Source: a virus
Virus record (IMG/VR): IMGVR_UViG_3300033183_000058
Span: 1 to 64,000 of that record
Direction: 5' to 3' (one strand)
DNA: 64,000 nucleotides
Under the pieces are notes generated by a model. That model was not told the origin of the DNA. It ran no database searches and was given only the letters and a program-made list of their open reading frames with translations. Each line of letters opens with the position of its first letter. Position 1 is the first letter of the stretch. The position numbers and the translations under genes are program-made. Positions 1 through 16,060 of this stretch are shown here, piece by piece.

Positions 1-185
1 AACAAGATGTTCGTTTTCGTTGGTATGCTATAATGGAAATTACAAGAAAAATTGCTAACACAAGTTTAGAAGATTTACATAGACAGCATACAGAAATGAC
101 TAGTGTTATCCTACATAATCAGGCTTGGTTTAAAAGAAATAAGCAGGAAGAATTACTTAAGGCCGTTAGGAAAATAAGTGGCTAA
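1..185 (+). CDS. C-terminal fragment of an unknown protein
   Basis: An open frame enters from the left edge (first full codon at base 3) and ends at TAA 183-185, giving about 60 residues. The visible part is charged and probably helical, with a motif EDLHRQHTEM and a basic end (AVRKISG). It converges on the minus-strand SGNH gene and overlaps its 3' end by 33 bases, which is common for phage gene ends. I do not recognise a family. The start lies outside the window, so neither length nor function can be judged. Confidence 0.45.
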   Translation, partial: QDVRFRWYAIMEITRKIANTSLEDLHRQHTEMTSVILHNQAWFKRNKQEELLKAVRKISG

Positions 186-788
186 TAAATGATCTGCTAT
201 CAAAGCATGTTCAACATTGTTAGGATGTCTTTCCTCTTCGTCATACTTTCCAACGTTTTTAAAGTCCATAACATCTAGTTCAATAAATGTTATCTGTCTT
301 TGATCACATATCGCTTTTAGAGCTAGACTATGATTATCACGCTTACTATCTAATTCATCACAATCAATCACGTGACTAACAGCAAACTTAACTCCCTGCT
401 CAAGTTCGTTTAAAATATTAGCATCACTAGAAATATAGACTTTACCAACATCTTTTCTATGCTTTGGATCTTGATAAACATCTTTCAGTGCTGTGGCAAA
501 GGTAGGATGTATGATATATGTTCTATCAAAAGCACGCCACGTAAGCCTGGGAGAATGGGTCCAACAAACTAACAACACCGACACGTCATCGTGCTTTTTG
601 ATTTCCTCAACTGCTGTGTGGAAAATATAATCGTTACTAGCACCGCTAAGTGCCACATTGATACATTTAAGATTTAAGTTTTTTGCTAGTAATGCAGGAT
701 AACTTTGTTGAGCATTTTCTTCACTCATAAAAGGATGATCTAACTCAGCACCGTGTGTCACTGAACAACCTGCGGCTATGAGTTTCAT
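153..788 (-). CDS. SGNH/GDSL-type hydrolase-like protein
   Basis: A 211-aa protein with the layout of SGNH hydrolases. Block I is GCSVTHG at residues 7-13, with Ser9 as candidate nucleophile. A second block SGASND is at 48-53, where the oxyanion Gly/Asn is expected. A C-terminal HPN motif near 188-190 sits where the catalytic His usually lies. Family members remove acyl groups from sugars, lipids or peptidoglycan, and no signal peptide is seen, so the protein is probably cytoplasmic. Its ATG overlaps the stop of the upstream carbamoyltransferase gene by 4 bases (ATGA), indicating coupled translation. It is the last gene of the long accessory operon. The fold assignment is fairly secure but the substrate is unknown; trimming or transfer of acyl groups on the product made by the neighbouring genes is an inference. 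Confidence 0.7.
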   Translation of the reverse strand: MKLIAAGCSVTHGAELDHPFMSEENAQQSYPALLAKNLNLKCINVALSGASNDYIFHTAVEEIKKHDDVSVLLVCWTHSPRLTWRAFDRTYIIHPTFATALKDVYQDPKHRKDVGKVYISSDANILNELEQGVKFAVSHVIDCDELDSKRDNHSLALKAICDQRQITFIELDVMDFKNVGKYDEEERHPNNVEHALIADHLLATYFPNGLK

Positions 789-2278
789 GATACTACTTTA
801 ACTCCATATCGCTGTTGAAATCTATCAGCATCACTACGATCATTAACCATTGGCTCACCTTTGATATTGAGGCTAGTGTTTAGCAACATAGGACAGCCTG
901 TTAGCACAAACCATTTTTCTAATAGTTGTCTTATACCACTACCACAATCCTTACTCACAGTCTGCACACGACTAGTTCCATCCTGATGTATGATAGCAGG
1001 AAATTCGCTTGGCTTCTTACATGTAGCCACAGTCTGCATATAAGGGCTTGTTGGAAAGCCTTTAGGCATAGTAAAGTATTCGTTGACATATTCTTCAAGT
1101 ATAACAGGTGCAAATGGACGAAACTTTTGTCTACGTTTAATTTCGTTTACTCGATCTTTTATTTCAGGACCTCTTGGGTCTGCTAGTAATGATCTATTAC
1201 CTAATGCTCTAGGACCAAACTCTGCACGTCCTGATGCTACTCCTACTATCTTTCCTGCTAATAGTTCATCTAATAAAGCATTAACAGGATACTCGCCTTC
1301 AATGTTCATACCTAGATATGGATGCGACCATTCTACTTGTTTACCATAAGCAAGTGCCGCGGCACCTAAACTTGAACCTGCATCGCCTGGATTGGGCATG
1401 ATCCAGATATTGTCAAAGTAATCACCCAGGTGTTCATTTGCTGAACAGTTAAGAGCAACTCCGCCCATGTAGACTAAGTTATTGCTACGACCTATTTTTC
1501 TAGCATGAGCCATTATTTGATGTAGGCATTGTTCTACAGTGTATTGAGCTGAAGCCGCAATCTGAAACTCTGTCATTTCTGGTCTGTAGTCTTCACAGCC
1601 TATGTGTAGATTATCATAAAATTCTATTTCTTTTTTGTCTTTGACAAACTCAGCAAATACATTGTAGTCTGGTCTTGCATAGGCGGCCATGCCCATTAAA
1701 ATATATTCATCCTCATTTGGTTTTAATCCTGCACGTTGAGTCATTGCTGAATAAAATAATCCTACCGAGTGTGGATATTTTTGACTCCATAATTTTGTAT
1801 ACTGAGCACGACCTTTACGATCATAGTGTGCATGCCAAATTGATATAGTGTCAAACTCGCCTATAGCATCAATGACTACAACAGTGGCATCGTTATAAGG
1901 ACTTGTTTGAAAACCAGCGGCCGCATGTGATAAATGATGATGATAACTTGAAAAAGGTATACCTGTGCCTATTAGTCTTCTGGCACGTGGAGGGATTTCT
2001 CGATCAATGGCCTGCATAGTTGTTATACGGCGCCAATCAAATCCTATACCTGAGCGCCAATTACGTAACTGTTTTAGTAAAGGCTTTTCATAGTAAGCAA
2101 TATGAGTAATCTTATTAGTATAGTTGTAGGCATCATAGAATATGTCAGTGTTTAGGCTACGGTCATTCTTTTGTTTTGAATAACGTTCTGCATGTCCAGC
2201 AAACTTAATTGAACCGTCGTAGTCTACAACACTAATTGAAGCGTCGTGAAAGCCTGCCGATATTCCTAAGTAACTCAC
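785..2278 (-). CDS. NodU/CmcH-family O-carbamoyltransferase
   Basis: A 497-aa protein matching the carbamoyltransferase family that moves a carbamoyl group from carbamoyl phosphate to a hydroxyl of a sugar or antibiotic. The N-terminus LGISAGFHDAS is the family's first ASKHA-type motif. HHHLSHAAAG at 113-122 holds the metal-binding histidines, DAIGE follows at 137-141, and FGPRALGNRS plus FRPFAPVI in the region 350-395 mark the C-terminal YrdC-like carbamoyl-adenylate half. The end, LNTSLNIKGEP, is also typical. At 497 aa it is somewhat shorter than the usual 550-600, mainly at the C-terminus. It overlaps both neighbours by 4 bases. Family members decorate Nod factors, nebramycin-type antibiotics and surface sugars; here the neighbours argue for a phage-made or host surface glycan. 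Confidence 0.9.
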   Translation of the reverse strand: MSYLGISAGFHDASISVVDYDGSIKFAGHAERYSKQKNDRSLNTDIFYDAYNYTNKITHIAYYEKPLLKQLRNWRSGIGFDWRRITTMQAIDREIPPRARRLIGTGIPFSSYHHHLSHAAAGFQTSPYNDATVVVIDAIGEFDTISIWHAHYDRKGRAQYTKLWSQKYPHSVGLFYSAMTQRAGLKPNEDEYILMGMAAYARPDYNVFAEFVKDKKEIEFYDNLHIGCEDYRPEMTEFQIAASAQYTVEQCLHQIMAHARKIGRSNNLVYMGGVALNCSANEHLGDYFDNIWIMPNPGDAGSSLGAAALAYGKQVEWSHPYLGMNIEGEYPVNALLDELLAGKIVGVASGRAEFGPRALGNRSLLADPRGPEIKDRVNEIKRRQKFRPFAPVILEEYVNEYFTMPKGFPTSPYMQTVATCKKPSEFPAIIHQDGTSRVQTVSKDCGSGIRQLLEKWFVLTGCPMLLNTSLNIKGEPMVNDRSDADRFQQRYGVKVVS

Positions 2279-3111
2279 TGGTCTACTCTGATTCTTCCTC
2301 GTTCGGTATTTTCACCAGGCACTGCTAAAAACTTATCAATAAACCAGGCACTGACGTCAAGTGCTTCGCTATCTTTAACAGCAAAGTCATACAAGTTAGC
2401 ATGGGCATGATGATTATTATGTAGTCCTTCGCCTAGTGTCCATAAATGAACCCAACTGTTATTTTTACTACGGTCATCAGTGTCAAAGTTTCTATATCCA
2501 AGTGTATGCCCAATCCAATTAACAAATACATTTAATTCAACATGATATATCCAACTTGGCATAGCAACTAAAAATACTGTTATACGCCAGTCTATTAATA
2601 ATGTAACTGCTGTTAATGCCGCCCAAAGTTTATAATAATGATTATGAATAAATCTACATGTTGGATGAACTAGCAAATCTCTAGGAGTCATACCTCCTCT
2701 ATCCATAAACCATTTAAGATTATTAAATTCCCAAAGACCTAATGCTGTGTATAATTCTCCATCATTTACAGGACTATGCCAATCATTTGGCTTGTCTGTT
2801 ACCCTATGATGTTGTCTATGATTACGAGCGTATTGAATTGGAGAACCAACTCCTAACAAGAAACTAGTCCAGGCCATTAACTTTTCACCAAACGGTGTAG
2901 TATTAAATGCTCTATGACTAAAGTATCTGTGCATACCAATTGAATGACCAATCAGTTGAATTACCTTACTCCATACTAGACCTGCTAGTAGCCACCAAAG
3001 GCTTACACCATTAAACAACATGAATATTCCAAAGAAACTTGTTAAGTATATTAAACCTAAAAAATATCTGAATTTATTCGTTGTTATTTCTTTCTTTATC
3101 TTCGCTAACAT
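2275..3111 (-). CDS. membrane fatty-acid (acyl) desaturase
   Basis: A 278-aa membrane di-iron desaturase. All three histidine boxes are present: HRYFSH at 61-66, HRQHH at 98-102 and HNNHH at 231-235. Hydrophobic segments near 17-50 and about 165-190 fit the usual transmembrane hairpins. The pattern resembles delta-9 acyl-CoA or acyl-lipid desaturases, which place a double bond in C16/C18 chains using oxygen and an electron donor. The start overlaps the 3' end of the acyltransferase gene by 38 bases. In the operon it may change host membrane fluidity, or desaturate an acyl chain carried by the product of the cluster. Desaturases occur in other marine phages; the substrate here is not visible. 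Confidence 0.9.
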   Translation of the reverse strand: MLAKIKKEITTNKFRYFLGLIYLTSFFGIFMLFNGVSLWWLLAGLVWSKVIQLIGHSIGMHRYFSHRAFNTTPFGEKLMAWTSFLLGVGSPIQYARNHRQHHRVTDKPNDWHSPVNDGELYTALGLWEFNNLKWFMDRGGMTPRDLLVHPTCRFIHNHYYKLWAALTAVTLLIDWRITVFLVAMPSWIYHVELNVFVNWIGHTLGYRNFDTDDRSKNNSWVHLWTLGEGLHNNHHAHANLYDFAVKDSEALDVSAWFIDKFLAVPGENTERGRIRVDQ

Positions 3112-3850
3112 GATTGTCTTTGTCTAAATCTAGATCTACTCTTTTTAATATTCTTCCGTTAAACAGTGCCTGTGTTCCGGGTTCCATATCTTTAGTTACG
3201 TATGCGTGACCATGTATTTTACAATCATCACCTACTTCTAAATGTCCACCAAATCTTCCCGTAACGATGGTAGCATTACATCCTACAAATACATTTTTAC
3301 CGCATTTAACTCCGCCTGCTACAAATCCTTTAACGCTGACAAAACTGTTCTCTCCCATGACTGCATCATGCCCAAATGCCGCATAATCTAATGCAGTAAC
3401 ATGTTCACCAAATTGAACATCGTCTCGGACGTCAACCCATCTTCCTGTGTATGACCCTTGTCCAAACGTTGCACCTTTACTTATCTTTGTATCCGGATGA
3501 ATTAACGTATGACAGGGTAAGTTTAATTTTTTAATTAATGCTAGTCGTTCTAATCTTAAATGATAACCGCTTTCCTCAGGTTTGTCTTCAATCCTGCTAT
3601 TACCGTCCCAACTATTGCCTAAGAAGAACATGGCATTACCAAACTTATGAGGATTATCAAGTAACTCTTTTTCACTGCCAATGCACTCGACACCTTTGAT
3701 TATGTGTCCAGGCTCATACATTCTATCCAAAAATCCAATAATTTTGATATTGAGAAGTTCACAGTTCTCAGTGAGGAAATCCATGCCCCATCGTGATCCT
3801 ACGAAAACTATTGGTTCTTTCTTTTTAAATTTTTTGAATATTGAAAACAT
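3074..3850 (-). CDS. NeuD/PglD-like hexapeptide-repeat acyltransferase
   Basis: A 258-aa protein with two parts. Residues 1 to about 115 look like the Rossmann-like N-terminal domain of NeuD/PglD acetyltransferases (IVFVGSRWG near the start, then IIGFLD). The rest is a left-handed beta-helix with repeated small-hydrophobic-G/N hexads (for example VKCGKNVFVGCNATIV). An active-site-type His is likely in AAFGHDAVMG. Such enzymes acetylate amino or hydroxyl groups of bacterial surface sugars from acetyl-CoA, usually as trimers. The tail after about 235 is highly charged. Its 3' end overlaps the desaturase start. It fits a sugar-modifying role beside the carbamoyltransferase. Confidence 0.8.
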   Translation of the reverse strand: MFSIFKKFKKKEPIVFVGSRWGMDFLTENCELLNIKIIGFLDRMYEPGHIIKGVECIGSEKELLDNPHKFGNAMFFLGNSWDGNSRIEDKPEESGYHLRLERLALIKKLNLPCHTLIHPDTKISKGATFGQGSYTGRWVDVRDDVQFGEHVTALDYAAFGHDAVMGENSFVSVKGFVAGGVKCGKNVFVGCNATIVTGRFGGHLEVGDDCKIHGHAYVTKDMEPGTQALFNGRILKRVDLDLDKDNHVSEDKERNNNE

Positions 3851-3874
3851 ATTGTAATTATACCTTATTCTGTG

Positions 3875-3976
3875 CTACTTGTAAATAAAAGGATCACGCT
3901 TCTTTAGTTCTTTTAATTTCTTCCTATATTTAATTTCTATTTTAATTCTATTAATTAAATTCTTTAACCATTTCAT
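3875..3976 (-). CDS. 33-aa basic microprotein
   Basis: A small frame runs from ATG (3974-3976) to TAG (3875-3877). It encodes 33 residues rich in Lys, Arg and Ile, with the core YRKKLKELKKRDPFIYK at its C-terminus. The ATG overlaps the TGA of the upstream 352-aa gene as ATGA, the same coupling seen at other joints of this operon, which is the main reason for calling it. The profile is an amphipathic basic helix followed by a short aromatic tail. I believe similar tiny RDPFIY proteins occur in marine phages but cannot verify this here. Function unknown; an RNA-binding or host-interaction peptide is possible. Confidence 0.6.
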   Translation of the reverse strand: MKWLKNLINRIKIEIKYRKKLKELKKRDPFIYK

Positions 3977-5031
3977 AGTATTTCTATCCTTTCTATATCT
4001 AAATGTGAACTCATTTGTTTCCATATTTCAAACGAGTCTGTTGTTCCAAAACTTTTTTCTAATTCAACATAACCTAATTCAAGATATCCTAAACTTAATT
4101 TAGGATCGCGTGGATCTAATCCGTGCTTAATTAACCAATTTTCAAATTTTAATAATTCTCTATCATGCCATGGACAATCATTATTACGTGTTATACTTCT
4201 GCCCCACTCAATATCAAACTCTCCCGAATAATATTGTAGGTGTGTTATTGCTTCACAGGTTGCTTCGTCTAAGTCTGGTGCGTCTTCGTCTCTAAATACT
4301 TCTATTAGAGTTTTACCTATTTGCGTCCAGTGCATGTAAACATGAGCAAATTTACGATCATACCCATTGGTTATAAATCCTTGTCTATGATCATCTGTTA
4401 ATTCATATCTAGTAGCCTTAAAGAATGTTGTTATCTGACTAGGTCTTATCCATTCAGGTGCTACACGTTGCTTACGCTGACTTAATATTAAACTTTCTAA
4501 TTCATGACAGATATTATTAAGTTGTCTTATAGCGTTACGCACCTCTGGCGGCGATACTTGGCCATATGGACTGGGGGATTCAACTGTGCCTTCTAAACGT
4601 TCAAAATGATTGTGTAATTGATTCATAATTGAATGTTTAGTTTTTAATCCAATTGCTTCTTGGCTTGCTAGATGTGCTTCTACCGAATCACTTCTAACGC
4701 GAGTCTCTATAGGATAAGTGTCAGGAAATCTAACAGTGTTTGGATGGAACCATTCTTCAATAATATAATCTTCTAAACCATGCTGTGTATAATCATAACG
4801 ATTAATAATCTCTACACTTTTATTAAGTTCATCGCAAAGATATTCAACAGTGCGAGCCGAATCTGGCCATCCTAAAAAACAAAATGATTTTTCCAATGTA
4901 AGATTTTGATCTAATATTTCTTTAAGAGCGTTAACCCAATCTTGTGCTAGTTTAGTGTCGTTAGGTCTAATGTAATAAGCGATCTTATCATCATTATTAA
5001 ATGGATTTTGTAATGTAACTTTAATTTCCAA
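3973..5031 (-). CDS. unknown 352-aa protein of the radical SAM operon
   Basis: I do not recognise a family. The 352-aa protein has no signal peptide, membrane segment or cysteine cluster. It contains many His, Trp and Tyr residues and short conserved-looking stretches such as LGWPDSART, MNQLHNHFERLEG, EWGRSITRNND and LGYLELGYVELEKSFG. The central part (about 120-190) is probably helical. It overlaps the radical SAM gene upstream by 11 bases and is coupled to the 33-aa gene downstream. Being cotranscribed with five radical SAM genes, it could be a partner or the protein they act on, but nothing in the sequence proves either. Confidence 0.75.
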   Translation of the reverse strand: MEIKVTLQNPFNNDDKIAYYIRPNDTKLAQDWVNALKEILDQNLTLEKSFCFLGWPDSARTVEYLCDELNKSVEIINRYDYTQHGLEDYIIEEWFHPNTVRFPDTYPIETRVRSDSVEAHLASQEAIGLKTKHSIMNQLHNHFERLEGTVESPSPYGQVSPPEVRNAIRQLNNICHELESLILSQRKQRVAPEWIRPSQITTFFKATRYELTDDHRQGFITNGYDRKFAHVYMHWTQIGKTLIEVFRDEDAPDLDEATCEAITHLQYYSGEFDIEWGRSITRNNDCPWHDRELLKFENWLIKHGLDPRDPKLSLGYLELGYVELEKSFGTTDSFEIWKQMSSHLDIERIEIL

Positions 5032-6328
5032 TGTCGTCCCACCATTCCAATGCGTCTGTTCTATTACTTAATATATCTCGCATGGTATACGTATCTTTTC
5101 TAATTAACTCTAATTGTAGCATACGATTCTTACCGTCCACAAGAGCTTGTTGCCATGTATCTGAAAATTGTTCCTCAAATGTAGGTCTTGTTTTTAGTTG
5201 CTCTAATACATCACGCATGGCTCCTTCGCTGTGAGGTATTAGTTCATCAAGCCATGGATGTAATATAGATCGTGGGAGTGCAAGTGGACTCATAATGATG
5301 TCTGGGGTAAACCCAAACACCACTTTAGCCAGAATGTCTATTTCTTTTTCTTTCGCAAGTTTTTGGATATTTTCAACTTCGAATAATCCAGGGAGTGTGA
5401 GCGTGAAGTCCAATCGAATCTGTCTTCTATGAACTGCGTTCTCAAGTCCTTGATCGAGATTCTCAAGCCAAGAATTGTAGTTGAGACCCGTCCTAATATA
5501 TTCTCCAATCGCTCCTGTTCCGTCGATTGACGCACATATCTGCCAATCGCGTAAGTTGCTAAGGATATCAGTATAAAGATTACAGCCTCTATAATCCACA
5601 CGGCTGAGGTTGGTATTGTATCGAGCATAAACATTTGGTCCATCTCCTAATTCAATGATGCGTTGCATGTATCGCCAGTGTTGCTCATACATCAACGGTT
5701 CTCCGCCTACCCAGTAAATCTCTTCGACTCTATGGTCTTCAACTGCGTCAGCGAACTCCTGCTCTATCTGCGTGTCCTGAAACTTAGATATTTCATCACG
5801 CACTGCAGGCACCATCCAATTATTTTTGGGATTTTTAAAATCTATCATCCCATGCTTACGTTGTTCTGATTCCCAAGCACTGGATAACATATCCCCACAC
5901 ATACGGCATTTGAAATTACATAAATTGGTAAACCTATAATCCCAACTAACAGGTTTCATTGTAGTATGACCTGTGTCGTCCGTTGTGTCCCAAATCTTAC
6001 TATAGTATTTACTACTGAACAGGTGATCAAAATATGTGCGGTAAACGTCAGTGTTTAATAACTTACTATTACACACATCACATTCAGGCAAGGGTTCTCC
6101 CTTCATCATACGTTGACGCACTGATTTCATATGGTCACTGTTCCAGTGTTCTTCTAAGGTAATAGGAATATACTTGCCTGTGCCTGATTTAGTATCTATA
6201 TACTGTTCAAAGTTCTGTGCAGGTTCTCTTGATGCACAGCACATTCGTCTTTCTGTTTGTGGGCTTAGATAGGTATGTGTCCAAGGAGCCATACACAAAG
6301 TAGCAGGTCTGTTCTTAGGTTCTTTCAT
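5021..6328 (-). CDS. radical SAM protein with N-terminal twitch domain (1)
   Basis: A 435-aa radical SAM enzyme. The S-adenosylmethionine-cleaving 4Fe-4S cluster motif CxxxCxxC is at Cys137, 141 and 144 (LCNFKCRMCG), and the SAM-binding GGEP is in WVGGEPL. Before the barrel is an auxiliary-cluster module: Cys12 in CMAPWTHTYLSP, the pair Cys30-Cys31, and CDVC at 83-86. This resembles a SPASM/twitch domain moved to the N-terminus, the architecture known as twitch-domain-containing radical SAM. Such enzymes do difficult radical chemistry on peptides or sugars. It is the last of five related genes in a row and overlaps its neighbours by 11 and 14 bases. Substrate unknown. Confidence 0.88.
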   Translation of the reverse strand: MKEPKNRPATLCMAPWTHTYLSPQTERRMCCASREPAQNFEQYIDTKSGTGKYIPITLEEHWNSDHMKSVRQRMMKGEPLPECDVCNSKLLNTDVYRTYFDHLFSSKYYSKIWDTTDDTGHTTMKPVSWDYRFTNLCNFKCRMCGDMLSSAWESEQRKHGMIDFKNPKNNWMVPAVRDEISKFQDTQIEQEFADAVEDHRVEEIYWVGGEPLMYEQHWRYMQRIIELGDGPNVYARYNTNLSRVDYRGCNLYTDILSNLRDWQICASIDGTGAIGEYIRTGLNYNSWLENLDQGLENAVHRRQIRLDFTLTLPGLFEVENIQKLAKEKEIDILAKVVFGFTPDIIMSPLALPRSILHPWLDELIPHSEGAMRDVLEQLKTRPTFEEQFSDTWQQALVDGKNRMLQLELIRKDTYTMRDILSNRTDALEWWDDIGN

Positions 6329-7520
6329 AGCCTATTGCCTCTGCTAGTTCAGGATGGTGGTCCCATAATGACTCGTTGCGTAGTCGATCAAATCTGCGTA
6401 TGTTGTCTAGTAATTCTTTTGACTCAACGCCCTTGCCTTGATCCATAAAGTTTATTATTCTATCAAATTCTTTCTTATGTTTGTTGTGATTGGGAATCAA
6501 ACTTAATTTTGCGATGGCACGTATCTTTGCCCTTGGATGCAGATTCGCTATGTTGTTATACCATATCTCATGAAGCATGTTCCAATAGACAAAATCAAAC
6601 TCTTGCTTGTCGATCCACCAACTTAGTTCTTCCAAATACATCACATTAAACACATTTACTGTAGAACAGCACTGTAGAGTTATGTTGCCAAACTCTTGTT
6701 TAAGTTTTTTAAAGCGTTGTATGTTAGCATTTACTTCTTGCCACTCTGCATTCTTACGTTGATATTCAAATCTTTCTCGAACATCATCTATGCTAAATGC
6801 TATTTCAACTAATTTAAATTCCTTCCATACCGCTAAGTTCTTTTCTGGATACTGTGTGCCGTTAGTGTTGTAATGTATTTCAATATTCTTAGCAACACCT
6901 CGATCTACTAGTGTTCGTAGGAAGTCAAAATGCTCCTGAATCATAAAAGGTTCGCCACCAGTAAACTCTAGGTAGCGTATGTTGTCTACATTGTCAGACA
7001 TCTCTTGCCAAAAACCTTCTGCTTCTCTAGGCCAGCGACCTTGTTCAATCATTTTATATGGAAAACTAGACTTCTGTTTTTCTTTAGGCAACTCTTGAAG
7101 TTCTTCTGTGGCGTAACTACTAGAACTCCAACTACCACATATACGACATTTTAAATTGCAGATGTTACCTAGTTTAAAATCTATAAACGCCAACGGCTTA
7201 TGATCTTGAGTCCATTCAGTGCTATCAATCATTGACTCTAAACGCTCTAATGTGTATTCACGTTTTGACTTACCACCTGAATCTTCTACTGCCCAGCACT
7301 TCTTACAAGTGTCTGGTTTCTCTCCGTTTAGAAACTGACTACGCAGATCACGCATAGACTCTTGTGCTTGTTCTACAGTGTCTACACCTACACGTAATTT
7401 CTCACCTTGATCATTGACTAATTCATCCTCTGCCAGACAACATGGTCGCATGGTGCCAATGGGACTTGTTTCAACACTAACCCAAGGTAGTATGCAAAAT
7501 GTTTTATTTGGTAAGTTCAT
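6315..7520 (-). CDS. radical SAM protein with N-terminal twitch domain (2)
   Basis: A 401-aa paralogue of the neighbouring radical SAM genes. The N-terminal auxiliary-cluster module has Cys9 in CILPWVSVETSP, the pair Cys27-Cys28 and CKKC at 72-75. The radical SAM motif is Cys121, 125 and 128 (ICNLKCRICG), and FTGGEPF supplies the SAM-binding glycines. It is the shortest of the five and has no long extension, so it is close to the minimal form of the family. It overlaps the upstream gene by 17 bases and the downstream one by 14. Chemistry is expected to be SAM-dependent radical modification; the target is unknown. Confidence 0.88.
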   Translation of the reverse strand: MNLPNKTFCILPWVSVETSPIGTMRPCCLAEDELVNDQGEKLRVGVDTVEQAQESMRDLRSQFLNGEKPDTCKKCWAVEDSGGKSKREYTLERLESMIDSTEWTQDHKPLAFIDFKLGNICNLKCRICGSWSSSSYATEELQELPKEKQKSSFPYKMIEQGRWPREAEGFWQEMSDNVDNIRYLEFTGGEPFMIQEHFDFLRTLVDRGVAKNIEIHYNTNGTQYPEKNLAVWKEFKLVEIAFSIDDVRERFEYQRKNAEWQEVNANIQRFKKLKQEFGNITLQCCSTVNVFNVMYLEELSWWIDKQEFDFVYWNMLHEIWYNNIANLHPRAKIRAIAKLSLIPNHNKHKKEFDRIINFMDQGKGVESKELLDNIRRFDRLRNESLWDHHPELAEAIGYERT

Positions 7521-9168
7521 TTAACTCAGGTATTGCTTCTAATACATTTTCATTTCTAATACGATCTAGTTCTATTGTTTTTTGCCAAAATCTTTCTCTG
7601 CCTTTGCCATTTAATGGATCATTAAGTAAGTTTAATGCACTTTGAAATCCTTGCGTTGCTCTTCCAAACGTGTCAAGAGGTTTAAGCCAAGATAAATGTT
7701 CTTGGTATTTTTCTGATATTTTCTTTCTATAATCTTCGTCAGCAATACTGACCTGTAACCATTTTGGATCAACTAAAAGATTAATATTTAAATCTTGTGG
7801 TTTTATTAGTCCTTTACTTACCCATTCTTTATGAAAATCGGGTAAGTGTAAAACATTTAAAATGCTTAGTGTAGGACTAATATAAAAGTCAACACGAGGA
7901 CATTGTTCCATCATTATACGTCTATTACGTTCCACTTCTTCCCAATCTGTGCCTTTACGAATATACTCTGCTCTTGGACCCATGGCATCTAAACTAGCAC
8001 CAACAGCAACTGATTTAAATTTACGCCAATAGTCAAATACATAACGATCTTTTAGTTTTGTTTTAGTAAAGTTTGTGTTATAAACCAATGTAACATCAAA
8101 TCTTTTACGACGTTCTAGTTCTTCAAGTATATGATAATGTTCATCCATTATCAATGGTTCACCACCAGCAAAATATATTTGCTCTACATAGTCTATATGT
8201 TCCATTAGTTGTTCTAACATATCGGTTTCGTGTCGGCCTGCCCAAAACAGAGCTTTATTCTTTTTACCCCATTCAGGACCTGCAAGTTTAATTTGATCTT
8301 GATACCAAGAACTTGAAAATATGTGTCCGCATGAACGACAACTTAGATTACATAGGTTACTAAAACGTATATCCCAATATGTCATTTCAAACTGATCAAA
8401 TGTTCCATCAGATAAAGTTTTATCTACTCTTTTAACATGATGTCCTTGATGTTTGTTAGCACTTTGTCTTGGACTAAAAAATCCTGCACGTTCTTCTTCA
8501 TAGCATTTTTTACATCCTGGGCTTTGAATATCATTGAGCATGTTTGTTCTCAACGTCTTCATTTTAGATGAGTTCCATATTTCTTTAAGAGTTTTGTTTC
8601 TAACAGAGCCAAAATTTACACTATAGTTCCACAAACAACAAGGTTGAGCTTGACCATTGGGACTAGAATTTAAATGGATCCAGGGATACATACAAAATGT
8701 TTTTGATTCAGTTAGTAAGTATTTTTCTCTTTCAGTTAAGTCAAACATATTAATGTTTGTAGGAACACTCGAACCATATATATACTCGTCTGTTATTTTT
8801 GCAGTGGTTTCATTTTTTATATAGTTTCCTTCTAATACTTTAAAGTCTAGTTTATTTTCTTTATCAGTATTAACAATATTGAGCTTTGTTATTTCTTTTT
8901 CAATATCTTTGTTTGTTGTTTGCACTAATATAAAACAAGGAGTAATGTCAAGGTTATTAACAATTCTTAATAAGATTGATAACTTAATGCCCACATCTGA
9001 ATCTTTTTGATATAAATCAGAATCTCCAAAGTTGATAACTATTCTGTCATTATTATCATATGCTTCTTTTTTATTTTTTTTAAGATTAGGAAACAAATAA
9101 TTTTTTAATTCGTTTAGATCTTCAATCGAATTTATATATAATGTATCAATGATATTATAATTTGCCAT
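7504..9168 (-). CDS. radical SAM protein with twitch domain and long N-terminal extension (3)
   Basis: A 554-aa radical SAM protein. Cys159 starts the auxiliary module (CMYPWIHLNSSP), followed by Cys177-Cys178 and CKKC at 219-222. The SAM cluster motif is Cys273, 277 and 280 (LCNLSCRSCG), then AGGEPL. The first 150 residues are an extra Lys/Asn/Ile-rich alpha/beta-looking region (VINFGDSDLYQ, LLRIVNNL) absent from the other four copies. It looks like a separate small domain, possibly a substrate-binding or leader-recognition element, though I see no clear RRE. Base composition of this extension is more AT-rich than the rest. It overlaps both neighbours (14 and 17 bases). Confidence 0.87.
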   Translation of the reverse strand: MANYNIIDTLYINSIEDLNELKNYLFPNLKKNKKEAYDNNDRIVINFGDSDLYQKDSDVGIKLSILLRIVNNLDITPCFILVQTTNKDIEKEITKLNIVNTDKENKLDFKVLEGNYIKNETTAKITDEYIYGSSVPTNINMFDLTEREKYLLTESKTFCMYPWIHLNSSPNGQAQPCCLWNYSVNFGSVRNKTLKEIWNSSKMKTLRTNMLNDIQSPGCKKCYEEERAGFFSPRQSANKHQGHHVKRVDKTLSDGTFDQFEMTYWDIRFSNLCNLSCRSCGHIFSSSWYQDQIKLAGPEWGKKNKALFWAGRHETDMLEQLMEHIDYVEQIYFAGGEPLIMDEHYHILEELERRKRFDVTLVYNTNFTKTKLKDRYVFDYWRKFKSVAVGASLDAMGPRAEYIRKGTDWEEVERNRRIMMEQCPRVDFYISPTLSILNVLHLPDFHKEWVSKGLIKPQDLNINLLVDPKWLQVSIADEDYRKKISEKYQEHLSWLKPLDTFGRATQGFQSALNLLNDPLNGKGRERFWQKTIELDRIRNENVLEAIPELNELTK

Positions 9169-10510
9169 ACCATTCCTTTAGTTCAGGAAAAGTTTCTGTA
9201 AAGTTTTTATTCCTGCGTTGGTCGTATTGTTCGTAAAAGTTTTTAAAATCACTCAATAATTTTTGTTCTTCAAAAGTGTCCGAGTGCGGTTTGTCTACAA
9301 GTTGTAGGTAATCAATTAATCTATCTATATGATTGTGTTCAAACTCATGTAGCCATTCACCGTAGTTTGTTTTAAATATACCTAGTCTGTTTGCTTGAGC
9401 TATTCTAAACTCTTTGTTTAACACTAACGGTGATTGGAAACTAGGAAAGCGTAAGATGTTTAAGGTAAAGTTAACACTATCTTTGCCATACTGTTCTTTC
9501 CATTTCATTATCTGTCTGAGGAATCTATCTAGTGTAGTCAGGCACAGTGCATTAATGGTGCACATGACATGCAGTCCTCTGAGCCTGCGACTGTCTAGCA
9601 AATACTCTACATTATCTTGCCATACTTGATAGTCTAAACCATCACGAATATATTCTGCTTTAGTTCCACATGCTTCGTTACTAGTATATAGATCTAGTTC
9701 AACTTCTTTGGCTCCTTCTATCAGTCTATCTATCTTTTCTCGATCAAACGATAAGTTTGAATTAATAGCAAGACGTGTTTGACTCTGTCCTCGATTCCTT
9801 TGAAACCATTCTAACAGTTGCCATGTATAACCTGACATTAATGGTTCGCCACCTGTTATTCTAAGTTCTTTGAGTGTCTTGTGTAGATCGGATTCCCACC
9901 ACTTGAAGAAGGCCTCAATGTAAGGATTATGCTGACCATAAGTATACAACTGACTACTGTCGTGAGTATGAGTAAAGTGGTTGCGGCCATCACTAACCAA
10001 GTTGGTATAACTACCTTTGAACTTAATGTCCCTAACCCAACTACTGCTAAAAGCGGGGTTGCAATAACTACAAGCCAACTGGCAAGTCCTATCAAAAGCA
10101 ATTTCCAAAGTTCTAAGTTCAACATCTTGTGTCCATTTAGTATGGTAAGCATCGTCTAACTCCTTGTCCTCATATATAACTGTTTTATAAACTCTATCCG
10201 ATATAGCATCCTTGCCCATATCTTCAATCTTCCAGCAGTATTCGCACCCTTTAGGTCTCTCACCTGCCTGCATCATAGCACGTTCTTTTTTCTTTTGTTC
10301 TGTATTGTGTAATGCTTTTGGATTGCGTTCTACTTCTGTAGTAGTAATCTTGTGTGGTAAAGGATGATGACAACTGGTAGTCATGCCACTGCCTAACCAT
10401 ATGGTAGCGTTATACCATTTGGCCGCACAGAAACTATCACTCTTAATATCAATGACTCTGCGTTTATATTCTAAGTCTGTTTCGTTATGCTTTTTTGGCA
10501 TATTGTTCAC
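9155..10510 (-). CDS. radical SAM protein with variant N-terminal cluster (4)
   Basis: A 451-aa member of the same series but of a different subtype. The radical SAM motif is Cys143, 147 and 150 (TCQLACSYCN), followed by ITGGEPL. The N-terminal module has Cys28 (CAAKWYNATIWL), then a single Cys47 in SCHHPLPHK in place of the Cys-Cys pair, and CEYC at 89-92. His48 and His49 next to Cys47 could take part in metal binding. A motif NPKALHNT is shared with the next gene, so these two form a sister pair. The start could be Met1 or Met4. It overlaps the upstream gene by 26 bases and the downstream one by 14. Confidence 0.87.
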   Translation of the reverse strand: MNNMPKKHNETDLEYKRRVIDIKSDSFCAAKWYNATIWLGSGMTTSCHHPLPHKITTTEVERNPKALHNTEQKKKERAMMQAGERPKGCEYCWKIEDMGKDAISDRVYKTVIYEDKELDDAYHTKWTQDVELRTLEIAFDRTCQLACSYCNPAFSSSWVRDIKFKGSYTNLVSDGRNHFTHTHDSSQLYTYGQHNPYIEAFFKWWESDLHKTLKELRITGGEPLMSGYTWQLLEWFQRNRGQSQTRLAINSNLSFDREKIDRLIEGAKEVELDLYTSNEACGTKAEYIRDGLDYQVWQDNVEYLLDSRRLRGLHVMCTINALCLTTLDRFLRQIMKWKEQYGKDSVNFTLNILRFPSFQSPLVLNKEFRIAQANRLGIFKTNYGEWLHEFEHNHIDRLIDYLQLVDKPHSDTFEEQKLLSDFKNFYEQYDQRRNKNFTETFPELKEWYGKL

Positions 10511-11915
10511 ACTCCTTCCACCATGCAGACATTTCTGGAAATGTCTTTAAAAAGTCAGTGCCTCTCCTTCGATCGTGTTCACTAAAGTATCTATAGAAAT
10601 CTGCTTTTTGTTTATTTTTATAGTTATCATCTAACTGTTGGCCTGATCTCATCCAAGTGATATCTCTGTCAAGTCTTTTTATTTCGTAGTCTTTAAACCC
10701 TTTAAATCTAGTTTCTTCTGTTTCATGCCACTTAACCATCCAGGCCCATAGTCTTTCTAGTTTATCAACATATGGTTCAGGCAGTAAGTCCATACGCATC
10801 CACTCAGGTGTTCTCAATATAGGTGTGTCAAACCACACACGTTGATATGTGTTTGAATGCACTTGTCTAAGTCCGTGTATACCTGCAAACAAGTTTTCAA
10901 CTGATGTAACATTTAAGTTATTCATAGTTATGATAAATGTTATGCTTGAACGTTCTGGCACTTCAAACAAGAACTGATTAACACGTTCCCATAACAGTTT
11001 AAAGTCTAGTCCATCTCTGATATATTCTGCTTGTTCGCCAAACCCGTCCACACTCACATACTGCATAAAGTGTTCTACATTATCATCTGCACATATCTTT
11101 TTAACATAACCTAAATACTTTTGCCATAGTTTTTCATCTACTGAAAAGTTTGAAGTTACATTTAAATGTAAGTCTGGTTTAGGGTTTTCTAAAACATAAT
11201 CAAATACCTTGAAGGTATTCTTGTCCATTAAAGGTTCTCCGCCTGTCATGCGGAAGTGTTTAAGTTCAGGGTAAAGATCAGGCCACCAATCCCAAAACGC
11301 AGTTAGGTATGGATTGTGTTCTCGGAAAGGTATAGGCTTTCTCCTACCCTGAAAATAGTTAGGGTCATTGTGTGGCGTTGATGTTGGCCACGCACCCAAT
11401 TCGTTTGACTCTTTCTCCCACGCTGTAGAGTATTGTGGTGAGCAGTAAGAGCATTTTAAATTACAGTTGTGATTAAAGTTAACTTCTACATAACTTGGTA
11501 TAACATCTTGATCCCAAGGTGCGTTAACTATTTCATTAAATGATTCTGCGGCCCAAGGTTCACCTGAGCGATAGTGCCTGTCGCTGAGTTTACCATTGTC
11601 TTCCATAGTCCAACAGTAACTACATTCTTCTGGGCGTTGCCCTTCTAACATCTGCTTACGTGCAGATTTCTTTTGTGCTGTATTATGTAAGGCACTAGGA
11701 TGAAACTCTAAAGGTTTAACATCTATTTCATGTAAGGGTGGATGGTAGCATGAGTTAGTCATGCCCGTGGTGAGATGTAGGCTAACCTGTTTCCATTTAG
11801 CCAAGCACATACTAGGACTTACTGTGTCTAACTGTTCTTTAGCAACTTCTGCGTCACTTAAGAACTTAGACTTAAAGTCCTTGTTTACTTCATCACCTTT
11901 ATTTTGAATAGACAT
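10485..11915 (-). CDS. radical SAM protein with variant N-terminal cluster (5)
   Basis: A 476-aa radical SAM protein and the closest relative of the gene downstream. The catalytic motif is Cys151, 155 and 158 (NCNLKCSYCS), followed by MTGGEPL. N-terminal cluster residues are Cys37 (CLAKWKQVSL), Cys56 in SCYHPPLHE, and CSYC at 98-101; again one Cys plus His replaces the Cys-Cys pair seen in copies 1-3. The shared PSALHNTAQKK stretch ties it to copy 4. It is the first translated of the five and overlaps the glycosyltransferase-like gene upstream by 17 bases. Duplication and divergence inside the operon is the simplest origin. Confidence 0.87.
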   Translation of the reverse strand: MSIQNKGDEVNKDFKSKFLSDAEVAKEQLDTVSPSMCLAKWKQVSLHLTTGMTNSCYHPPLHEIDVKPLEFHPSALHNTAQKKSARKQMLEGQRPEECSYCWTMEDNGKLSDRHYRSGEPWAAESFNEIVNAPWDQDVIPSYVEVNFNHNCNLKCSYCSPQYSTAWEKESNELGAWPTSTPHNDPNYFQGRRKPIPFREHNPYLTAFWDWWPDLYPELKHFRMTGGEPLMDKNTFKVFDYVLENPKPDLHLNVTSNFSVDEKLWQKYLGYVKKICADDNVEHFMQYVSVDGFGEQAEYIRDGLDFKLLWERVNQFLFEVPERSSITFIITMNNLNVTSVENLFAGIHGLRQVHSNTYQRVWFDTPILRTPEWMRMDLLPEPYVDKLERLWAWMVKWHETEETRFKGFKDYEIKRLDRDITWMRSGQQLDDNYKNKQKADFYRYFSEHDRRRGTDFLKTFPEMSAWWKECEQYAKKA

Positions 11916-12810
11916 CTACTTCTCTTACCATAGGCCCTTGGTTACGCCAATTTGATCTATAGTGTCTTTTGAAAAACTTACTTTGTTCTTGATCTAGTTC
12001 TACCACATCCAGATCTAATCTACTGAGTTCTTTAGCATTCTCTCTTGCTATCTGATCTGGATCTTGTGATTGCATTTCCGTCCATAACTTTTCCAAGTTA
12101 TCAAACCATTGAACTTCTGTATGATCCCACTCACTTAACATAGTCATTAGTGTGCCTTGTCTGGCTCCTGCTATTGCCCATATACCATTTTCAACATCAC
12201 GGCCTACTGTGTGCCATATGTTGAGATTATCTAAGTTACGTTTATGAGCTCTATCTTTAAATTTATTTATTGTTGGTTTATGTCCTCGATCTAAACACAT
12301 CTTAACACCTTCGCGGAATCCTGCACGCCATGCTTGGAAAGGTGTAGCATTAGGGTATGTAACTGAGTAGCAATCGTGCATGGCCCAGTATAAAGGATCA
12401 AAACAAAACTCTACATTAGTATCATCACTACCGTCACTGTTCTCATGTGTTTTCATATTATAGACAAAGTCTTTGGTCCATGAACTAAGTCCACCGTTGC
12501 CATACATTAATCCATTTATATGATTACGAGCTCTCCAACGGAACACTGCCTTTTCATAATCCTCATCTTTGAGTTCTAGTGTAAGATCAAAGAAGTCCGG
12601 GCTAGGCATATTGTCACCATCTATTAGGATAAATCTATCTGTATTACTAGCATCAGCCGCGGCTTTGTGTGCGGCGTCCGATCCTTTAACACCGTCTACA
12701 CGAGTTGCCCATGGAATCATATTTTTAATTTGAACCCAAAACTCTTCCTTTTGTGGTTCATCATAACTTAAGTATATGCAGTCTAAATCTGCTACATCAA
12801 TCTCAGTCAT
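11899..12810 (-). CDS. glycosyltransferase-like protein (GT-A type, DGDN motif)
   Basis: A 303-aa cytoplasmic protein. Near residues 60-66 there is ILIDGDNMP, a DxD-like motif after a hydrophobic strand, as in GT-A glycosyltransferases that bind nucleotide-sugar through a metal ion. Other strong stretches are IYLSYDEP at the start, NGLMYGNGGLSSW, VEFCFDPLYW and AWRAGFREGVK. I recall similar proteins in marine phages annotated as glycosyltransferases, but the match is by motif and fold pattern only. It overlaps the downstream radical SAM gene by 17 bases and the upstream small gene by 8. It could attach a sugar to the molecule handled by the radical SAM enzymes. Confidence 0.65.
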   Translation of the reverse strand: MTEIDVADLDCIYLSYDEPQKEEFWVQIKNMIPWATRVDGVKGSDAAHKAAADASNTDRFILIDGDNMPSPDFFDLTLELKDEDYEKAVFRWRARNHINGLMYGNGGLSSWTKDFVYNMKTHENSDGSDDTNVEFCFDPLYWAMHDCYSVTYPNATPFQAWRAGFREGVKMCLDRGHKPTINKFKDRAHKRNLDNLNIWHTVGRDVENGIWAIAGARQGTLMTMLSEWDHTEVQWFDNLEKLWTEMQSQDPDQIARENAKELSRLDLDVVELDQEQSKFFKRHYRSNWRNQGPMVREVDVYSK

Positions 12811-13129
12811 AGTATTTTACTTTCCATTTCTGCCCTTGTCCTATTATAGTAATGTCATCAACTAGTGTTTCTGTCCCCTCATCACTAGGAACAAGTTTAC
12901 GATACTGCGTAATCTTATTTGGATTTACCAGTTTACCGTTTTCAACTTTAACATCAACTCTACCTTCAAAAAACTCTTGCTTAGTGACAACAATATAACT
13001 ACCTTCTAGCTCTTGTCTTGAATATTCCTTAGGAGTTCCGTCCTCATTATAGTATAAACGATATTCATCTGATTGCTCTTGCCTTTTAACAGGCTGTCTA
13101 TTTTTAATTACTTCCCAAAAGGCTGTCAT
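12803..13129 (-). CDS. small unknown protein (108 aa)
   Basis: A 108-aa acidic/basic mixed protein of unknown family, predicted to be mainly beta (YRLYYNEDGTPKEYS, YIVVTKQEFFEG, GQKWKVKYYD). The start WEVIKNRQPVKRQ looks like an exposed tail. No cysteine cluster, membrane segment or catalytic motif is seen. It overlaps the two glycosyltransferase-like genes on either side by 8 and 26 bases, so it is clearly translated as part of the operon. A small accessory or structural partner for its neighbours is possible. Confidence 0.7.
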   Translation of the reverse strand: MTAFWEVIKNRQPVKRQEQSDEYRLYYNEDGTPKEYSRQELEGSYIVVTKQEFFEGRVDVKVENGKLVNPNKITQYRKLVPSDEGTETLVDDITIIGQGQKWKVKYYD

Positions 13130-13895
13130 AATGTTTCTCTAACACATCAGCAAAAGATTTGACTTGATAGTGTGTAGGTATTTGTTGTTGTATAGTCTGT
13201 ATACGAAGTCCGCAATCTGTTAACTCCCACACAAGTTCTTTTGTCCAGTCTTCACCATGACAAAAATTTATCTTGCCTTTCATGTGTGCAAACTGTGGAT
13301 ATGTGCTAGGTAGTAGGAAGTTTTCTCTACCTAGTAACACTATAGCTAATGCGTATACTGTATCAGTGTCTGGTTCAGATTGATCCCAATTACGCAATTT
13401 AACTTGATCCCAATTATCAAATAGTTCTCTACATGTTACAAAGAACTTAGCGGCTAATTCACTTCGTCTCCAATATGTTATTGCGTTATACACATCAGGT
13501 AGTTTGTTGTCATCTAAATGACGTCTATAGGTTCTATCTGTAGTCTTGTGCCCATAAAAGTTTCTAGTGCCTTGTGCTATAAACACATCACGTTTTTCGA
13601 CCATAGCCCACCAATGCTCTATTGAACCATTAAGAATCATATCTGCTTCTAGTTTAATAGTCTGACGAAAAGGTGTTGCTTCAAATATCTGCCAGTCATT
13701 TTTTAATCCGCCTTGGTCACCATAAGGTAAAGGTATTTCATAATCAAATATAGGATCTTGACAATCACCTACAACTGCTACTTTGGCTTTGGGCATAAAG
13801 TATTTTATTGACTTTGCAAGAGCTCTAGCACACGGGTGATATGTGTCGCCTTGTGCTACAATTAAATAACCTTGTTCTGCTTTAACTGCCTGCAC
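13104..13895 (-). CDS. glycosyltransferase-like protein (GT8-like)
   Basis: A 263-aa protein with the N-terminal pattern of GT-A transferases: a first strand (GYLIVAQGDTYHPCARALAK), a second (VAVVGD), then IKLEADMILNG near 80-90 with the acidic EAD in the DxD position after a hydrophobic strand. NWDQSEPDTD and ALAIVLLGRENF further on resemble the acceptor half of GT8-like enzymes. No signal peptide. It overlaps the downstream small gene by 26 bases and the related upstream gene by 14. It is similar in layout to the next gene, and the two may be diverged paralogues. The sugar donor and acceptor cannot be told. Confidence 0.6.
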   Translation of the reverse strand: MQAVKAEQGYLIVAQGDTYHPCARALAKSIKYFMPKAKVAVVGDCQDPIFDYEIPLPYGDQGGLKNDWQIFEATPFRQTIKLEADMILNGSIEHWWAMVEKRDVFIAQGTRNFYGHKTTDRTYRRHLDDNKLPDVYNAITYWRRSELAAKFFVTCRELFDNWDQVKLRNWDQSEPDTDTVYALAIVLLGRENFLLPSTYPQFAHMKGKINFCHGEDWTKELVWELTDCGLRIQTIQQQIPTHYQVKSFADVLEKHYDSLLGSN

Positions 13896-14652
13896 AGATC
13901 GCCTCCATTGATTGTTTATTCATTACGTGAATATCTAAACCTTTAATATTTTGTATTACCGCTTTTTGTTGTAGGTATGTTATGTAAGATAAAACAAATG
14001 TATTTTCCTTCTCTCCAGATCTAACATCAACATCAGTGGTTGCTGTAACTAGTGGCCAAGGAATCGAATATTTGCTAGATTCTACATGTCCACCTAATAG
14101 GCCAAGTGCTATTGAAAATGCCCAATCATTACGAAAAGTCTTGCTGTCAAACTTATATAAAAATCCATAGTGTTTCCAATCTCGTTTGATCATCTCAACT
14201 GTGTCAAATACTTCTTTAGCAAAATTAGATCTATTAAAATACATCACTGTGGCCCAACGACTGGGAAACTTATGCTCACCAAATCTATCTAGTGCTATGA
14301 ACTCTGCTCTCCTTGTTACATCTGTTGCTGTCTGATGAATCATAAAATCTTTGTCTGCGTCAAACAATAAATTTAATATTTCACTGTTAACAATGTAGTC
14401 AACATCTAGCACTATTGTTTCATCATAAGGACTATGATCCCAAGCACGATTGCGACTAGCATTATACCATAACTCTCCACCTTGGGTAGCATTGAATACT
14501 CTGGTGCCACCCAGTTCAGCATCATCTTGGTTTGATATAATTGTTGTGGGTAGACCTAAGTATCTTTCAATACGTTCAGCAGACCATTTGGCCATAGAAA
14601 GATAATCCGTGGTGCCATTGTTAAATGCGTAGAGTAATACTCCTCGACTCAT
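13882..14652 (-). CDS. glycosyltransferase-like protein (GT-A type, DVDY motif)
   Basis: A 256-aa protein beginning with a Rossmann-like strand (GVLLYAFNN) followed by TTIISNQDD, then ETIVLDVDYIVN near 79-90, a clear DxD-type motif. Later parts include AFSIALGLLGG, comparable to ALAIVLLGRE in the adjacent 263-aa protein. This supports two related GT-A proteins side by side. It overlaps the gene upstream by 4 bases and the one downstream by 14. Similar proteins appear in marine T4-like phages, where they may glycosylate host or virion components; this is inference. Confidence 0.62.
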   Translation of the reverse strand: MSRGVLLYAFNNGTTDYLSMAKWSAERIERYLGLPTTIISNQDDAELGGTRVFNATQGGELWYNASRNRAWDHSPYDETIVLDVDYIVNSEILNLLFDADKDFMIHQTATDVTRRAEFIALDRFGEHKFPSRWATVMYFNRSNFAKEVFDTVEMIKRDWKHYGFLYKFDSKTFRNDWAFSIALGLLGGHVESSKYSIPWPLVTATTDVDVRSGEKENTFVLSYITYLQQKAVIQNIKGLDIHVMNKQSMEAICAGS

Positions 14653-14948
14653 CGTTGTCTCGATTGTTCTGCTAGTTCAACACTCCAAGCATTTAACTGT
14701 TCTTGATGTCTCTGCTTGGCCTCTTTGAGTAAGGATGGTCTATCAACTTCTGTGGGATTATTAAATTCATCAAGTATGACCACAGTGTCTGTGTCAAATG
14801 ATGATAATAGGACTATTAGATCTGCACCTGCACGGAACATGCCGCCTTGGTGTGCGAATAGTAGTTTTGCTTCGTATTTTTCACGCAAGACCTGTTTAGC
14901 GGCCTCGTGATCAAAACGAGCTTTGATCTTTTTGCTGATTGTATCCAT
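14649..14948 (-). CDS. small conserved phage protein (99 aa)
   Basis: A 99-aa protein, probably helix-strand-helix: an N-terminal basic helix (ISKKIKARFDHEAAKQVL), a central TVVILDEFNNPTEV strand pair and a C-terminal amphipathic helix rich in Gln and Glu. I have an impression of relatives in marine T4-like phages but no function. It is the first gene after the terminator at 14983-15006 and the first of the long overlapping operon. A TATAAT box lies only 5 bases upstream of its ATG, so either the transcript is nearly leaderless here or the motif is fortuitous. Confidence that it is a real gene is good. Confidence 0.75.
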   Translation of the reverse strand: MDTISKKIKARFDHEAAKQVLREKYEAKLLFAHQGGMFRAGADLIVLLSSFDTDTVVILDEFNNPTEVDRPSLLKEAKQRHQEQLNAWSVELAEQSRQR

Positions 14949-14953
14949 ACCTT

Positions 14954-14962: not shown

Positions 14963-14982
14963 CATACTTATCAGACAAAAAG

Positions 14983-15006
14983 AAAGGCACCTAAAAAAGT
15001 GCCTTT
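14983..15006 (-). terminator. factor-independent terminator after the fibre gene
   Basis: On the minus strand an 8-bp stem AAAGGCAC / GTGCCTTT with an 8-base loop is followed by CTTTTTG. It lies 20 bases after the stop of the 335-aa fibre-like gene and separates the structural operon from the accessory operon. Confidence 0.85.
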
Positions 15007-15025
15007 CAATTCTACCAAAAACTTA

Positions 15026-16033: not shown

Positions 16034-16060
16034 TTGTTATGTTCCTCTATATTACTTATA

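Follow-up and report, generated by a model that had tools for sequence, protein, structure and literature searches.

A conserved, radical SAM-rich gene module beside the tail-fibre genes of a RaK2/Phosso-like jumbo phage may decorate the virion

We describe a gene module in bases 1 to 64,000 (hereafter the window) of IMG/VR record IMGVR_UViG_3300033183_000058, a linear virus record of 73,853 bases, that is, a 74-kb fragment of an incomplete genome. The module occupies positions 153–14948 and consists of sixteen minus-strand genes, namely fifteen open reading frames (ORFs; g01 to g15) and a micro-ORF (3976–3875) of 33 amino acids (aa), lying beside the fibre genes t16 and t17 (Table 1). Its core combines glycosyltransferase (GT)-like proteins, five 'twitch' radical S-adenosylmethionine (SAM) proteins and a carbamoyltransferase; it keeps its gene order in relatives, and the genes at its upper end (g15 to g12) have diverged together with the Ser/Thr-rich protein t16. 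We tentatively propose, with somewhat less than even confidence, that this module tailors the tip of the phage's own tail fibres or another part of the virion. Tail fibres set phage host range, and little is known of their chemical modification.

Results

A conserved core with its own transcription boundary

An earlier note on this DNA, made from the letters of the window, had described the region as an operon-like biosynthetic cassette of sixteen same-strand genes, nearly all overlapping by 4–38 bases. The coordinates bear out this layout: the micro-ORF is the sixteenth gene, and 14 of the 15 junctions overlap (from the g01 side to g15: 4, 4, 38, a gap of 24 between g04 and the micro-ORF, then 4, 11, 14, 17, 14, 26, 17, 8, 26, 14 and 4 bases). 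Relatives were collected from viral contigs with g10 (relatives in 129 stretches, 80 kept) and with g11 (at least 596 relatives, 80 kept), and the 159 loci obtained were reduced to 93 distinct ones by removing those with identical g11 proteins or with less than 8 kb downstream of g11. The order fibre genes–g15–g14–g13–g12–g11–radical SAM genes is kept in 70 of the 71 distinct relatives that hold all nine tested families, and the genes share one strand in 91 of 93. Both g14 and g13 are present in all 93 loci, g15 in 86, g05 in 52 and the carbamoyltransferase in 40, many loci ending before its place. This kept order argues that the core (g11 to g15, the radical SAM genes, g05, the micro-ORF and the carbamoyltransferase) is not a scattered collection. 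The same cannot be said of the extras: g01 is found in 13 of the 93 relatives and g04 in one, while close relatives have no g03 in the stretch from g05 to g02. Judged by gene content, the desaturase g03 and the acyltransferase g04 are lineage-specific insertions. The cassette reading of the earlier note thus stands for the core, by its order, its strand and a transcription boundary at its upper end, and fails for these two insertions.

That boundary lies between t16 and g15. Of 97 distinct t16|g15 gaps, 60 contain a terminator-like hairpin (mean 1.55 and at most 4 in 20 rounds of shuffling), and in 36 a TATAAT box precedes the start codon of g15 by 3–9 bases (shuffle mean 1.7, at most 5). These sequence signals show the module to be a transcription unit of its own, starting at g15, and the short distance from TATAAT to start codon points to a transcript with little or no leader. 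The promoter-like site before g04 may start a second unit for accessory genes; counted over the whole region, promoter-like sites are no more frequent than expected by chance. We also considered TATAAT a few bases before ATG as a general motif and rejected it, since across the window it does not exceed chance and only the t16|g15 instance is supported by relatives.

Linkage to the fibre gene t16

With 29.6% Ser+Thr, t16 ranks first among the proteins compared; the neighbouring t17 has cultured structural proteins among its relatives. In an independent set of loci fetched by t18 alone (80 kept, 23 truncated loci set aside), 26 of 27 loci with t16 also have g14, as against 1 of 7 without t16. 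Co-divergence was measured in 56 loci holding all families, with t18 as the clock and 300 permutations, and a 95-locus set agrees. The partial correlations of t16 with g15, g14, g13 and g12 are 0.45, 0.46, 0.49 and 0.51, values reached by none of the 300 permutations, and that with g11 is 0.31. The other fibre gene behaves differently, t17 giving 0.02 with t16 and 0.02–0.12 with g12 to g15.

A hydropathy screen of 2043 module proteins from 155 loci, counted with repeat fetches, found none with three or more hydrophobic windows; in the control set of cellular neighbours, 120 of 1061 proteins had them. Export of a lipid-linked glycan by the phage alone is therefore unlikely. Taken together, the co-divergence of t16 (and not t17) with g12 to g15 and the lack of a polytopic membrane protein favour fibre decoration over assembly of host lipopolysaccharide (LPS) or modification of DNA.

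The radical SAM array

All five radical SAM proteins (g06 to g10) exceed the NF033640 cut-off of 170 bits and carry a CxxxCxxC motif, which all 608 relatives of more than 330 aa also have (111 loci, repeat fetches included), so that by sequence these paralogues look intact. In a tree, g07 to g10 each form one group with bootstrap support of 97–100, and the g06 group takes in one long-branched bacterial row; on this evidence the five are old, separate paralogues whose deep order is unsure owing to long branches. At least one radical SAM gene is present in all 93 distinct loci, g10 in 91 and all five in 39. Among large records, all 16 that carry the cluster (at least 200 kb each; L021, L022, L038, L059, L065, L069, L070, L085, L104, L112, L125, L127, L128, L133, L146 and L171) hold 7–19 twitch radical SAM matches, many of them scattered far from the fibre genes, while none of 14 control genomes has a match above the cut-off.

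Another locus (L342:4653-11781) has two twitch radical SAM genes and one other radical-SAM-like gene placed singly, in the manner of mobile inserts, among genes that we take to resemble the T4 gp47/gp46 recombination pair. The cellular contig scan kept 78 loci among the matches listed; L176, L177, L213 and L237 were treated as phage-derived and left out of both the cellular control and the tree. No common theme emerged from 105 proteins neighbouring twitch radical SAM genes in 18 cellular loci. On an Oligoflexia contig (L178), relatives of radical SAM A, B and C lie side by side, and a bacterial source of the array is possible.

Glycosyltransferase-like and other enzymes

The enzyme classes named in the earlier note fared unequally. 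The five radical SAM proteins, the carbamoyltransferase, the desaturase (g03; E 1e-11) and the hexapeptide acyltransferase are all confirmed by profile matches, g04 remaining below the family cut-off for TIGR03570. The proposed SGNH hydrolase g01 is doubtful, its GDSL match (E 0.01, 16.8 bits) falling short of the Pfam cut-off of 32.9. Of the three proposed glycosyltransferases, g11 is the best supported: its predicted model (pLDDT 91) has as best Foldseek match the capsid glycosyltransferase of PBCV-1 (E 2e-4, probability 1.0, low TM), its VIA rows reach Z 7.5 and are mostly nucleotide-sugar transferases, and its DGD motif is invariant in relatives. The model of g11 thus looks like a GT-A glycosyltransferase. 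The evidence for the other two is weaker, g13 having a weak glycogenin match among PDB profiles (E 0.25) and g14 a conserved DxD-like pair (D83/D85) and no PDB match by profile search. For g05 the model is confident (pLDDT 86.5), and a Foldseek comparison gave no PDB match at E <0.9, a result that a known fold could also give.

The slots between g11 and g10 and between g10 and g09 are very variable, with 81 clusters among 379 genes. GT-like genes occur there in 71 of the 93 deduplicated loci (145 genes in 85 loci with repeat fetches). Accessory slots also hold nucleotide-sugar epimerase/dehydratase, DegT aminotransferase, SAM synthetase, a nucleosidase-family protein, UDP-glucose dehydrogenase, FkbM methyltransferases, hexapeptide transferases and a B12-binding domain. 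A 356-aa accessory family looked like a relative of GT10 by one motif, but Pfam and PDB profiles did not support this, and the family is GT-like only. One cluster (L036) encodes a PNP/UDP-phosphorylase-family, nucleosidase-like protein (L036:16643-17215) and a SAM synthetase (L036:20116-21198), a pairing in keeping with heavy SAM use. In about 15 relatives a protein of 99–127 aa with one hydrophobic segment lies between g12 and g11 (e.g. L036:7581-7913).

The carbamoyltransferase and its microprotein

Both Carbam_trans domains of g02 lie above their cut-offs (N, 126 bits; C, 175 bits) and its PDB relatives reach E 4e-48; as the nodulation protein NodU (NF041651) it scores 142.9 bits, below the cut-off of 1000. 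The C-domain PF16861 is present in all 16 large cluster-bearing records, with a single occurrence in 15 and two in the remaining record. Where the gap between g05 and the carbamoyltransferase is under 600 bases, the micro-ORF lies in it in 28 of 32 distinct loci. The C-terminus of the microprotein (RDPFIYK) is almost invariant and its N-terminus variable; over codons 1–22, the only ones free of the selection of forms by last-codon residues, variation is 0.384 at third positions against 0.229 at first and 0.133 at second.

Two reciprocal searches tie the pair together. The pattern KRDPFIYK plus stop was found in at least 119 viral stretches, of which 80 were kept: a carbamoyltransferase starts within 1.5 kb downstream for 40 of the 50 distinct peptides with that much sequence, and lies within 3 kb upstream for none of 63. 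Starting from carbamoyltransferases (80 loci kept, 78 distinct), the motif lies at most 1.5 kb upstream in 52 of 78 (48 strict), 18 with a 4-base overlap, and the strict motif was absent from all 78 downstream stretches of equal length. Each of the 15 large cluster-bearing records searched (L038 left out) holds the motif a single time, as does the window's own record, whereas the outgroup record L266 has neither motif nor carbamoyltransferase; record L367, having been fetched by the motif itself, was not counted. Of 80 pattern-selected micro-ORFs, only 9 have a twitch radical SAM gene within three genes to either side, and the partner thus looks to be the carbamoyltransferase rather than the radical SAM enzymes.

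In another phage group (L350:6642-7966 and L364), the DPFIYK microprotein accompanies a short carbamoyltransferase of 320 aa, flanked by genes that are presumably a primase and a helicase; its place among replication genes there makes the pair look like a portable unit. In L388, L409 and L498, longer proteins of 111–195 aa finish with a K(R/K)DPFIYK tail, which gives this tail the look of a transferable tag. An amphipathic N-terminal helix in the window microprotein was considered and dropped, shuffled versions doing as well in 205 of 500 cases. Searching phages by tblastn with the microprotein gave no match even at E 10, for which the low-complexity filter of BLAST may be the cause.

Phage background

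The window is, by its structural genes, a fragment of a RaK2/Phosso-like jumbo myophage (RaK2/CBB/Phosso group): it encodes orthologues of both the baseplate wedge protein and t18 of that group. The wedge protein shows 31–35% identity over 93–99% to its best-matching jumbo myophages, which include Phosso, SCTP-2, CBB, GAP32 and Atu_ph07, and both t18 and t17 have relatives in RaK2-like jumbo phages, part of them annotated as structural. Phosso and Atu_ph07 also have a giant structural gene in the place of t19, and related contigs bearing the cluster reach 354 kb. Cultured carriers were sought by tblastn of g10, g11, g14 and g15 against a phage collection and by megablast of window positions 1–20000, with no match in either; with g08, the only matches were Vibrio phages K566/K567 and a single-cell contig of 7.9 kb. 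This type of phage is known mainly from environmental DNA.

Table 1. Genes and signals of the module and of the adjoining fibre region, in window coordinates.
Feature	Position	Strand	Basis
g01, SGNH/GDSL-like, 211 aa, accessory	153..788	-	sub-cut-off GDSL match
g02, NodU/TobZ-type carbamoyltransferase, 497 aa	785..2278	-	Carbam_trans N + C, phrog_1601, PDB relatives
g03, fatty-acid desaturase family, 278 aa	2275..3111	-	PF00487
g04, NeuD-like hexapeptide acyltransferase, 258 aa	3074..3850	-	PF00132
Promoter-like TTTACA-17-TATAAT just before g04	3857..3885	-	11/12 matches
33-aa micro-ORF, C-terminus KKRDPFIYK, candidate carbamoyltransferase partner	3875..3976	-	
g05, 352 aa	3973..5031	-	confident model, no PDB match by Foldseek
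g06, twitch radical SAM E	5021..6328	-	NF033640 286 bits; CxxxCxxC
g07, twitch radical SAM D	6315..7520	-	NF033640 337 bits
g08, twitch radical SAM C, N-terminal extension	7504..9168	-	NF033640 396 bits; SPASM at 159-223
g09, twitch radical SAM B	9155..10510	-	NF033640 294 bits
g10, twitch radical SAM A	10485..11915	-	NF033640 323 bits
g11, GT-A-like transferase	11899..12810	-	invariant DGD, predicted fold
g12, 108 aa	12803..13129	-	strongest co-divergence with t16
g13, GT8/glycogenin-like (weak), 263 aa	13104..13895	-	phrog_1903
g14, putative glycosyltransferase, 256 aa	13882..14652	-	D83/D85 invariant
g15, 99 aa, first gene of unit	14649..14948	-	
TATAAT box, 5 bases before g15 start codon	14954..14959	-	
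Intrinsic terminator behind t16, 11-pair stem	14982..15007	-	
t16, Ser/Thr-rich fibre-like protein, proposed substrate	15026..16033	-	
t17, fibre protein, Peptidase_G2-type domain	16061..17413	-	
t18, conserved virion protein of RaK2-like jumbo phages	17471..18136	-	
t19, giant, 4467 aa	18136..31539	-	

Discussion

The earlier note had offered three purposes for the cassette, namely remodelling of host LPS, a block to superinfection and modification of the virion. The last is the best supported, given the linkage and co-divergence with t16 and the lack of a polytopic membrane enzyme. We envisage that the GT-A-like proteins g14, g13 and g11 would add sugars in the cytoplasm to the Ser/Thr-rich t16, or to a carrier beside it, and that the radical SAM enzymes and g02 would next alter the sugar or the peptide, for example by epimerisation, dehydration or carbamoylation. 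Swappable accessory genes (acyltransferase, desaturase, epimerase, methyltransferase, extra GT-like genes) could then make the decoration phage-specific, and such a decoration might help fibres to fold, to last, to bind or to escape recognition.

Several points weigh against this proposal. The link of t16 to the radical SAM genes is weak (partial r 0.12–0.25, the value for g10 being reached by 19 of 300 permutations), and because twitch radical SAM genes also lie far from the fibres in the same phages, not all of them can serve fibres. Co-divergence can arise from exchange of a linked block. The case for g13 and g14 as glycosyltransferases is weak at the sequence level, and a virion glycan or modified residue is here a prediction from genes. 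Finally, the membrane screen is a simple hydropathy count, and soluble glycosyltransferases could use host lipid carriers.

A rival reading is remodelling of the host surface, in which soluble enzymes would change host LPS or capsule precursors and so block superinfection or recognition. We consider this unlikely, yet a serious contender. The tail-fibre region of pelagimyophages carries GT8-type glycosyltransferases and radical SAM cassettes, and the authors of that work read the glycosyltransferases as modifying the O-chain (PMC7029224); in cyanophages, carbamoyltransferases adjoin heptose-phosphate and nucleotide-sugar genes. Against it, the module has no polytopic flippase, polymerase or initiating transferase, and g12 to g15 follow t16 and not the genome at large.

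The microprotein invites explanations of its own. HypF carbamoylates the tail of HypE, and PqqA and HypE offer models for a peptide substrate. The tail of the microprotein could be read in two ways, as carbamoylated in the manner of HypE or as a docking motif. By analogy, it might be a dedicated C-terminal-tail substrate or carrier for a phage carbamoyltransferase and, in these jumbo phages, supply the pathway that decorates the fibres with a group altered by carbamoylation or by radical chemistry, an idea that we regard as rather doubtful. It is distinctly unlikely that the product is instead the peptide itself, with the microprotein serving as substrate of the carbamoyltransferase and/or the radical SAM enzymes to yield a small modified peptide or cofactor. 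The single copy of the motif per record, its position upstream of the carbamoyltransferase and never downstream, and the codon-position bias would all fit such a product, but the scarcity of twitch radical SAM genes near micro-ORFs does not, and a few longer proteins carry the motif at their end too, which is what one would expect of a docking motif.

We think it very improbable that unrelated phage genes merely pile up behind the fibre genes: the variable slots around g10 and the rarity of g01, g03 and g04 in relatives are what such loose cargo would leave, but the kept order, the common strand and the conserved boundary already disfavour it for the core. Least probable of all is hypermodification of DNA, with glycosyltransferases, carbamoyltransferase and radical SAM enzymes acting on a hydroxymethylated base, since, although 5-hydroxymethylcytosine (5hmC) is the substrate of a carbamoyltransferase that has both Pfam domains of g02, that type co-occurs with thymidylate synthase (PMC8670742), whose family PF00303 is found in 4 of 17 large records and is missing from 12 of the 16 cluster-bearing ones (possibly incomplete records), and the cluster adjoins fibre genes.

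Fibre decoration, the reading that we prefer, has precedents for its type of module in the pelagimyophage clusters and in virion glycosylation. As in the pelagimyophage host-recognition cluster, which is described as hypervariable (PMC7029224), glycosyltransferases and radical SAM cassettes stand beside tail-fibre genes, there of T4-like phages; unlike that cluster as described there, the window type has a fixed GT-like order, five paralogous twitch radical SAM genes and a fixed boundary, and belongs to jumbo phages. Mycobacteriophages encode glycosyltransferases that act on virion proteins, and glycans have been observed on their capsid and tail proteins (Freeman et al. 2023, cited in PMC12619734), where we infer them from genes; the passages of PMC12619734 drawn on here mention no radical SAM enzyme for that system. 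The 5hmC carbamoyltransferase shares its domains with g02 and goes with thymidylate synthase (PMC8670742), whereas g02 adjoins GT-like and radical SAM genes and follows the microprotein.

Closer at hand, Sinorhizobium phage Phosso and Agrobacterium phage Atu_ph07 share orthologues of the baseplate wedge protein, t18 and t17 with the window, and in both of them the orthologous fibre genes are followed immediately by several radical SAM genes. Those of Atu_ph07 are annotated as hypothetical and are read as radical SAM from weak profile matches and similarity to Phosso. The Phosso enzymes differ from those of the window in being mostly closer to PapB/DynA-type peptide maturases, and profiles found neither g11 to g15 nor the carbamoyltransferase in the stretches of the two phages that were examined. 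Beside SPASM radical SAM genes, both phages encode a protein (Phosso, L091:25415-26335; Atu_ph07, L092:21119-22009) that is 42% identical overall and ends in a CHxSCHASCHxSRSRR tail identical at 14 of 16 positions. This Cys/His/Ser tail is possibly like that of a ribosomally synthesised and post-translationally modified peptide (RiPP); His-Xaa-Ser or CXXX tails were found in these two phages only and in none of the loci of the window's own clade. It gives a hint that radical SAM enzymes on the fibre side modify proteins in this phage group, and is no evidence for the window cluster itself.

As far as our searches show, the radical SAM array and the microprotein–carbamoyltransferase pair are undescribed: we recognised no description of the cluster or of the DPFIYK microprotein in the open-licence literature of PubMed Central. 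The pair poses a small enzyme–substrate question that reaches past this phage group, and if the microprotein is indeed a carrier, it would represent a phage-specific peptide-carrier chemistry without a described counterpart in the literature searched. The number of twitch radical SAM genes per large record is a striking expansion in its own right. A set of radical SAM and GT-like enzymes that is kept in hundreds of viral contigs would imply that phages use radical chemistry, be it on a glycan or on the surface of their own particles.

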